Shown: positions 18,649 to 20,765 of the stretch, in pieces
Layout: each line of letters starts with the position of its first letter
Numbering within the stretch: the first letter of the stretch is position 1
Origin: Halanaeroarchaeum sp. HSR-CO
GTDB lineage: Archaea; Halobacteriota; Halobacteria; Halobacteriales; Halobacteriaceae
Length of the DNA: 64,000 nucleotides
Direction of reading: 5' to 3'
Assembly: GCF_024972755.1 (NCBI RefSeq)
Contig: NZ_CP087724.1
Location: 1,922,001-1,986,000, forward strand
Notes under the pieces: model-generated
Seen by the model: only the letters and a program-made list of their open reading frames with translations
What the model was told of the DNA's origin: nothing
Database searches by the model: none
Translations under genes and position numbers: made by a program

Positions 18649-19701
18649 TTACTCGGCGGCGGGGACGTCGATTTCGCCCGCGTCGAGTTCGGCTTCGATC
18701 TCCCGGGCGGCCTGGACCATGTTTGCCATCTTCTGGTAGGCGACTTCCCGAGGTAGGAGTTTGAGCCCACAGTCCGGGCTGACCGTTAGCTGTTCCGGCG
18801 GGACGATCTCGAACCCACGAGTGATGTTCTCTTTGATCTCTTCGACCGACTCGACGGTCGCGTCGTGGACGTCGACGACGCCCATCGCGAGGTCTTTCGT
18901 GAACTCGGGTTCGGTAAAGACCTCGACCTGTTCGAAGTCACCGTTGGCCAGTTCGAGGTCGAGTTCGTCGACCGGGAAGTCGAGCATCTCGGGGTAGATA
19001 CGCGAGTAGTCGCCGTAGCAGACGTGTAGGCCGAGGCGGACGTCGTCCGGAATGCCGTCGGCGATGCGTTCCAGGGTCTCACCGACGATGGCGTGGTCGT
19101 CGGGCGTGGTCGCGAGCGCCGGTTCGTCGATCTGGATGTACGTCGCCCCCGCCTCGACGAGTTTCTCGATCTCGAGGTTGACCAGGTCTGCGAGTTCGTT
19201 CGCCAGTTCGGCGTCGTCCTCGTAGACCTCGTTGAAACTCCAGGAGGCCAGCGTGTACGGACCGGTAATGGGCACCTTGACGGGGCGGCCAGCCACGTCG
19301 TCGGTGAACTCGAACTCGTCGACCAGCCAGGTCTCGTCGTACTCTACCTCGTCGACGACCGATGGCTTATCGAAGTAGTTGTGCCCCCAGACCTTCACCG
19401 GCCCGTTGAACTCGTACCCACAGATGCGGTGGGCGAAGTACTCGACCATCTCGTTGCGGCGCATCTCGCCGTCCACGACGACGTCGAGGCCCGAGCGCTC
19501 GTGTTCTTCGGTGATGAGGCGGGCGGCGTCGTCTTTGGCCTCCGCCCAGGCGTCCTCGTCGAAATCCGCGTCGGCGTCCTCGAAGAGTTGGCGGGCGCGG
19601 TCGTGCCACTTGGGTTTCGGGTAACTCCCGACGACGGTCGTCAGCAGGAAGTGGTCGTTCGGGTGATCAGCCGGTCGGAACTGACTGCGGGTGTCCGTCA
19701 T
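18649..19701 (-). CDS. metE2: MetE-type methionine synthase, catalytic-domain subunit (zinc ligands intact)
   Basis: A 350-residue protein equivalent to the C-terminal catalytic domain of cobalamin-independent methionine synthase; the N-terminal folate-binding half is absent, as in archaeal core enzymes. The zinc ligands are all visible: His226 and Cys228 in GLHVCYG, Glu250, and Cys311 in SPDCGLK. Substrate-site motifs ITGPYTLASWS and IDEPAL are present. It transfers a methyl group to homocysteine; the donor (corrinoid protein or folate) is unknown. Its ATG overlaps the TGA of the upstream paralogue, so both are made together. Confidence 0.9.
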   Translation of the reverse strand: MTDTRSQFRPADHPNDHFLLTTVVGSYPKPKWHDRARQLFEDADADFDEDAWAEAKDDAARLITEEHERSGLDVVVDGEMRRNEMVEYFAHRICGYEFNGPVKVWGHNYFDKPSVVDEVEYDETWLVDEFEFTDDVAGRPVKVPITGPYTLASWSFNEVYEDDAELANELADLVNLEIEKLVEAGATYIQIDEPALATTPDDHAIVGETLERIADGIPDDVRLGLHVCYGDYSRIYPEMLDFPVDELDLELANGDFEQVEVFTEPEFTKDLAMGVVDVHDATVESVEEIKENITRGFEIVPPEQLTVSPDCGLKLLPREVAYQKMANMVQAAREIEAELDAGEIDVPAAE

Positions 19702-20693
19702 TCGTTCACCCCCAGGTCGGCGGCTGCGGCGAGTGCGCCGAGTTTGTCTTCGAAGCGGTTCACGGGGAGGTAGAACAGTTCGGTATTGCTGGTGACGTAC
19801 ACGGTGTCGAAATCCTGGGCTGGCGGCGTCTGCTGGTCGACCCACTCGACCCGTTCGACGATGGTTTCGGGCTCCTCGACGAGCGTATTCTGCCCGTCGA
19901 TGACGCCGAGAGCGATGTCGTCTTTGGTCCCGTACTCGGCGACGAGGTCGATGCTCGCCTCGTGGTCCGAGACGAGGTCGTAGCCGATGGCGTCGACGTC
20001 GGCGTCGAGCAGGTGGGCGTGGACAGTCTCCTCGAGGGCGCCCCAGTAGGTCTGGACGACGACCGGGACGTCGATGGCGTCCGCGACGGCGTCGATCGCC
20101 TGGCTGACCCGTTCGTCCTCGCCCTCACCGGGCGGGTTCGTGACGAGCGACGGTTCGAGGAGGAACAGCGACTCGACGGCCGCCGGGAAGGCCTCTACCT
20201 CGGCGGCGAGGAAGTCGGTCACCGCGTCGAGGAAGACCGCGTCGTCCTCGTAGTACTCGTCGGTCGCCAACTCGGCGAGGGTGTACGGGCCGGGCGCGAC
20301 CGCCTGCAAGTCGTCGGTCAGCGCAGAAGCGGCCTCGAGTTCGGCGGCCATGTCCCCGTCCGGAGTCAACTCGCCGCGGACGATCGGATCGCGATAGAAG
20401 TTGTTGTTGTCGAAGTAGCGCACGATACCGCCGGTCTCCACGTTCTCGTGGACGACGAGCGGGTGGGCGAGCATGTCGTCCCAGCGCGCCTGGCCCTCGA
20501 CCACGAGGTCGAGTCCGGCCGCCGCCTGGGTGTCGATCAGTTCGGTGCGAACGTCCTCGTAGACGGCGACGATGTCGTCGTCTTCGTCACCGCTGATCAT
20601 GTCGCCTCGCTGGTGACCCTTCAAGTCGGAGAGAGTCTCCTTCGCGTCGTCCGGAAGCGGATAGAGCCCCGGCGTCGTCGCGAGTAATTGCAT
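19698..20693 (-). CDS. metE1: MetE-like protein lacking zinc ligands (partner subunit)
   Basis: A 331-residue protein that aligns along its length with the downstream MetE subunit: APGPYTLAELA matches GPYTLA, LFLLEPSLV matches IDEPAL, GVIDGQNTLVE matches GVVDVHDATVE. The zinc-binding residues are replaced: the His and Cys positions are Gln214 and Tyr216, Glu becomes Asp239, and the PDCGLK Cys becomes Thr304. It is therefore unlikely to activate homocysteine itself and may position the methyl donor or act structurally. A TATA box lies ~30 nt upstream. Often annotated metE N-terminal-like or MetE family. Confidence 0.85.
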   Translation of the reverse strand: MQLLATTPGLYPLPDDAKETLSDLKGHQRGDMISGDEDDDIVAVYEDVRTELIDTQAAAGLDLVVEGQARWDDMLAHPLVVHENVETGGIVRYFDNNNFYRDPIVRGELTPDGDMAAELEAASALTDDLQAVAPGPYTLAELATDEYYEDDAVFLDAVTDFLAAEVEAFPAAVESLFLLEPSLVTNPPGEGEDERVSQAIDAVADAIDVPVVVQTYWGALEETVHAHLLDADVDAIGYDLVSDHEASIDLVAEYGTKDDIALGVIDGQNTLVEEPETIVERVEWVDQQTPPAQDFDTVYVTSNTELFYLPVNRFEDKLGALAAAADLGVNE

Positions 20694-20719
20694 GTGAGAA
20701 GAGGTAGGGCAATCACGCT

Positions 20720-20729
20720 CTTTAATATT
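20720..20729 (-). promoter_or_regulatory. TATA box of the methionine synthase operon
   Basis: AAATATTAAA on the minus strand lies ~27-36 nt before the ATG at 20693; the flanking 40 bases are unusually AT-rich. Confidence 0.55.
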
Positions 20730-20765
20730 TTCTTTCCCAGATAATGAGCATAAGTAATCCCACCC

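Follow-up and report, generated by a model that had tools for sequence, protein, structure and literature searches.

Two adjacent genes of Halanaeroarchaeum sp. HSR-CO very probably encode a split cobalamin-independent methionine synthase (MetE), that is, a co-translated 1:1 complex that would transfer the methyl group of 5-methyltetrahydrofolate (5-methyl-THF) to homocysteine and would be supplied with methyl-THF by a Mer-type reductase. They are located in a stretch of 64,000 nucleotides that was analysed as a whole and is called the window below (Table 1). The assignment is based on the upstream protein, P0001, because it matches the Meth_synt_1 family, groups with the N-terminal halves of MetE, and shares a Tyr and an Asp with them. 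The pair as such is not new, it has already been described as split MetE (Price et al., 2021). An earlier note on this DNA had proposed an obligate pair with a zinc-free subunit on the donor side, which docks the methyl donor or a corrinoid protein and replaces a missing half of MetE. The conserved pairing held, and a role of the zinc-free subunit on the side of the methyl donor is probable, but corrinoid docking and the replacement of a missing half had to be given up.

Table 1. Features of the split MetE locus; positions are those of the window.
Feature	Positions	Strand	Basis or remark
First subunit of split MetE, P0001, 331 aa	19698..20693	-	PF08267 match, tree, AF2 model
Second (catalytic) subunit of split MetE, P0002, 350 aa	18649..19701	-	PF01717, NF003317, residues
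ATGA start/stop overlap of the P0001 and P0002 genes	19698..19701	-	read from both ORFs
TATA-type element GAAAATATTAAA	20721..20732	-	28 nt 5' of the first ATG
Second conserved element GKCATTNCNTA, between TATA and start	20705..20716	-	information content, 69 aligned promoters

Gene pair, promoter and methyl supply

The two open reading frames (20693-19698 and 19701-18649, minus strand) and their ATGA overlap are located as the earlier note had placed them. The TATA box that it had seen before the first gene was also found. The exact 12-mer GAAAATATTAAA has a single occurrence in the genome, and its TATTA core is present at 69 of 69 distinct haloarchaeal loci. From its distance to the start codon a near-leaderless transcript is predicted. 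The whole promoter region (20705-20732) is very strongly conserved at the 69 loci, with AG-AAATATTAAA and, at a constant distance from it, GKCATTNCNTA. The latter could function as an operator or as a proximal part of the promoter.

P0002 matches PF01717 (Meth_synt_2) with 201 bits and the catalytic family NF003317 with 538.8 bits (cut-off 406). The alignment confirmed that P0002 has the zinc set His226, Cys228, Glu250, and Cys311, and that these columns are occupied by Gln214, Tyr216, Asp239, and Thr304 in P0001. Like fused MetE, P0002 keeps the pterin-stacking Trp154 (E. coli W561) and the catalytic His279 (E. coli H694), and the homocysteine ligands S433, E484, and D599 are conserved. P0002 would thus form the catalytic barrel, in which the four zinc ligands hold Zn2+, homocysteine is activated as thiolate, Trp154 holds the pterin, and His279 acts as proton donor. 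P0001 would represent the other barrel, which covers the catalytic barrel in fused MetE and contributes to the binding of methyl-tetrahydrofolate. Co-translation via the ATGA overlap is expected to yield the complex in which the methyl group is moved. The PF1268 and PF1269 subunits of Pyrococcus furiosus have been reported to form a complex, and methyl-THF or another methyl-pterin has been predicted as the donor of split MetE (PMC7857596).

The one-carbon carrier of haloarchaea is tetrahydrofolate, and HVO_1937, a Mer homologue, has been proposed as the methylene-THF reductase (PMC8305020). A methylenetetrahydrofolate reductase of the MTHFR/MetF type was not found in the genome of Halanaeroarchaeum, and therefore an F420-dependent Mer-type reductase is the probable source of methyl-THF. 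The genome contains a Mer-like match of 310.7 bits, which is below the curated cut-off of 348.7. What the sequences show directly is the homology, the residues, the pairing, and the conserved promoter. From these we infer complex formation, methyl-THF as the donor, and Mer as its source.

A MetE-like thiol methyltransferase that uses another acceptor, with methionine being made otherwise, is a very unlikely reading of the pair. It is true that no biochemically characterised haloarchaeal split MetE was found in the literature. However, the ligands of homocysteine are in place, and besides the pair no system of the methionine synthase type was found in the genome. The MetH homocysteine domain PF02574 (S-methyl_trans) was found in none of nine genomes searched, including that of Halanaeroarchaeum itself. 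Most of the Halobacteria and Thermoprotei that have split MetE have been described to possess no other methionine synthase, and for Halobacteria this was reported in 73 proteomes (Price et al., 2021; PMC7857596).

The upstream protein as the N-terminal half of MetE

P0001 scores higher with PF08267 (Meth_synt_1, 61.0 bits) than with PF01717 (32.1 bits), and the PF08267 match covers the profile positions 107-311 only. This score alone was not relied upon. Since both domains are related by descent, and since P0002 gives a weak match to Meth_synt_1 as well (51.8 bits), a tree was built. It comprised 73 sequences, i.e., first and second archaeal subunits, both halves of 13 fused MetE, seven stand-alone homologues (see below), and two MesA-type methanogen enzymes (NF002119). 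A branch with a support of 100/100 sets apart the 19 archaeal first subunits and the 13 N-terminal halves of MetE, without exception. Within this group the first subunits are paraphyletic to the N-terminal halves of MetE, and as the respective forks are weakly supported, no claim is made on whether the split or the fused form is ancestral.

The residues are in agreement with the tree. At the columns of Cys643 and Glu665 the N-terminal halves of 13 of 13 fused MetE have Tyr and Asp, and nearly all first subunits agree with them (Tyr in 35/37, Asp in 37/37). Therefore, the absence of zinc ligands is normal for an N-terminal half. The loss that the earlier note had pointed out in P0001 is real, but it is not particular to this protein. 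P0001 also has no cysteine at all, so that an alternative zinc site with Cys ligands, which would have spoken against the zinc-free character of the upstream protein, was ruled out. At the column of E. coli K117 it has Arg92, and Arg is found there in 37 of 37 first subunits. The folate-tail segment of the E. coli enzyme (R17-E18-L19-K20) is partly kept, with Lys18-Glu19 and then no Lys. An AF2 model of P0001 had a pLDDT of 93.8, and the 14 best PDB matches in a fold search with this model were all MetE, whereby the table does not give which half was aligned. The top match was 1xpg, MetE of T. maritima with bound methyl-THF.

Could P0001 instead be a separately arisen degenerate copy of the catalytic protein, which docks a corrinoid protein or another non-folate donor? 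The organism lacks MetF, and among the NCBIfam models the catalytic family NF003317 is the one with which P0001 scores best (102 bits, far under the cut-off, compared to 64 bits with fused MetE). In our reading of the sequences the tree resolves this preference, since it places P0001 in the clade of the MetE N-terminal halves, and the Tyr and Asp columns are common to both. In addition, P0002 has retained the Trp and the His of the pterin site, and the haloarchaeal carrier is tetrahydrofolate (PMC8305020). A degenerate copy is thus a very unlikely explanation. As judged from sequence relationships, P0001 is the N-terminal, folate-side half of MetE and not a degenerate helper. Because P0001 is homologous to this half, no half of MetE is missing that it could replace, in contrast to what the earlier note had assumed. 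Docking of a corrinoid protein by P0001 was likewise ruled out by the tree and the residues. The zinc-free gene can be used as an ordinary folate-side MetE half in haloarchaeal gene names and pathway models.

Conserved pairs and stand-alone catalytic homologues

A search with P0001 as query yielded a match in 389 of 391 genomes of Halobacteria. In three of them (G318, G359, G366) the sole match was weak (E 2e-8 to 7e-12) and was attributed to cross-recognition of the catalytic paralogue. These three were discounted, and therefore the first subunit is counted in 386 of 391 genomes. The loci revealed 82 distinct pairs, all of them on the same strand, with a gap or overlap of at most 4 nt in 79 and an overlap of exactly 4 nt in 55 cases. 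Thus, the pairing expected by the earlier note is conserved, and the upstream gene is not absent from most genomes with the downstream gene. In view of these numbers and of the promoter core at 69 of 69 loci, it can be practically dismissed that both genes are relics without a needed function, or that independent genes became neighbours by chance, although genomes with a single gene exist (one with the first subunit only, G018, and four with a stand-alone homologue only).

Some genomes contain more than one copy. Several whole pairs are present in G222 (three, C2, C3, and C8) and in G380 (C4 and C6), and in both genomes the copies have always been duplicated as complete pairs. Three genomes that seemed to have one subunit (G307, G346, G366) were set aside, because their matches are at contig ends; G366 has a catalytic fragment at such an end. 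In G018, rated 99% complete, a first subunit was found without a catalytic partner, and its locus (L050) has other genes downstream. This looks like a real orphan or a decaying half of an enzyme.

Stand-alone homologues of the catalytic subunit were observed in anaerobic or soda-lake haloarchaea. Those in G001 and G007 (genus g2, same family) and in G318 and G359 (genus g80, possibly Halalkaliarchaeum) are 48-50% identical to P0002. In these four well-assembled genomes no first subunit was found, neither beside the stand-alone gene nor apart from it. A search of named contigs revealed the closest relative in a Halodesulfurarchaeum assembly (L110; 84% identity over 270 residues) and further homologues in two soda-lake assemblies, a Halomicrococcus plasmid, and Haloarculaceae H-GB1-1, the last two in addition to a normal pair. 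One of the soda-lake assemblies (G518, a partial genome) has a divergent match to the first subunit, and none was found in the second one or in Halodesulfurarchaeum, both of which are partial genomes. For Halodesulfurarchaeum formicicum a single methionine synthase is listed, HTSR_1805 (PMC5437934).

Seven stand-alone sequences form one clade (100/100), which is sister to the haloarchaeal catalytic subunits. They have retained the ligands of zinc and the homocysteine ligands S433, E484, and D599. However, W561 is replaced by Phe and H694 by Gln in 7/7 aligned proteins (including loci L046, L112, L083, L111, L113, and L227), whereas Trp and His are kept in 27/27 split catalytic subunits and in 13/13 fused MetE. 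Five stand-alone-type proteins (L046, L047, L111, L112, and a near-identical group) score under every NCBIfam cut-off. The loss of the first subunit is thus accompanied by that of the pterin residues and, in part, by corrinoid genes (see below), and this pattern supports the view that the upstream gene encodes the folate-side subunit.

Genes of corrinoid systems are found near the stand-alone gene in one complete genome and two soda-lake assemblies. At L111 (4236-10328) the gene for MttB comes first in a row, then the stand-alone gene, then those for an activator of the RACo type and a B12-binding protein with two domains. At L113 (391-10279) the neighbours encode EtfAB, a DAO-GcvT protein, a ferredoxin, RACo, and DUF1638. 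At L227 (6320-16592, G359) two Etf-like genes, called from their sequence, as well as genes for DAO-GcvT, RACo, DUF1638, and MTHFR are located within about 10 kb. The linkage exists in some lineages only, because the stand-alone gene adjoins ATP synthase genes in G007, G001, and L110, and no corrinoid gene was recognised near it in L112 and L236. In G001 the genes for a B12-binding protein, RACo, MtrH, and MTHFR are clustered at a distance of at least about 70 kb from the stand-alone gene.

MTHFR (PF02219) was detected in 5/5 genomes with a stand-alone gene (G001, G007, G318, G359, G371) versus 1/15 others, and, in a set of genomes that is not a random sample, in 3/3 versus 1/14 genera. The exception is G014, which carries a fused MetE. 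Of the 20 haloarchaea in this comparison, the 14 without MTHFR presumably depend on a reductase of the Mer type. For the distribution of the corrinoid genes (RACo, MtrH, B12-binding proteins) MTHFR serves as a proxy only.

Taken together, protein sequence and gene neighbourhood suggest that the donor has been switched from methyl-folate to methyl-corrinoid. We see an even chance that the catalytic half of split MetE has become, in anaerobic haloarchaea, a stand-alone synthase fed by a methyl-corrinoid protein. This would be a fifth folate-independent family, one that arose within the haloarchaea when the folate-side subunit was lost. It is only for the stand-alone homologue that corrinoid use is suggested, and the upstream subunit is lacking in most of the genomes concerned. 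This case is located outside the 64,000-nt window and may be new, as far as checked; a description of such a donor switch was not found in the open-licence literature. If true, a haloarchaeal methionine synthase would have swapped its methyl donor by shedding the folate subunit, the genomes with both forms would be persisting intermediates, and a direct genetic test of the role of the folate-side subunit would be at hand.

Comparison with known systems

Fused MetE (TIGR01371; E. coli, T. maritima) consists of the same two barrels, with the catalytic and the pterin residues in the catalytic half and, as in P0001, Tyr and Asp in the other half. In contrast to the single chain of fused MetE, two chains are present here. 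Further differences are Arg instead of K117 and a residue other than Lys at the K20 column in P0001, and Thr instead of E605 in P0002. A fused bacterial-type MetE of 766 aa exists besides the split pair in one haloarchaeon (L189, G014), as has been reported for Haloquadratum walsbyi. Single-domain bacterial MetE-like proteins near the catalytic half of fused MetE, which score just under the NF003317 cut-off, were observed in Rokuibacteriota and Dormibacteraeota (L117, L119).

The core methionine synthases MesA-MesD have a catalytic barrel homologous to P0002. However, they are folate-independent and have no N-half partner, whereas P0002 has the adjoining and conserved P0001. The two MesA-type proteins in our tree lack W561 and H694 (Ala and Ser), and P0002 keeps both. 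MetH differs by its PF02574 homocysteine domain, which is absent from all of the nine genomes mentioned above.

The greatest likeness is that to split MetE of the PF1268/PF1269 type, which has two adjacent genes, a Meth_synt_1-like and a Meth_synt_2 protein, and the zinc set in the second protein only. P0002 is a catalytic subunit of less than 400 aa with Meth_synt_2 and the HCEC zinc set. P0001 is a partner of less than 400 aa that scores higher with Meth_synt_1 than with Meth_synt_2 and is, by the tree, homologous to the N-terminal half of MetE, and the genes are adjacent in diverse genomes, as exemplified by the 82 distinct pairs. There is no difference of substance to the enzymes described by Price et al. 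(2021), and the pair of Halanaeroarchaeum is a member of this family.
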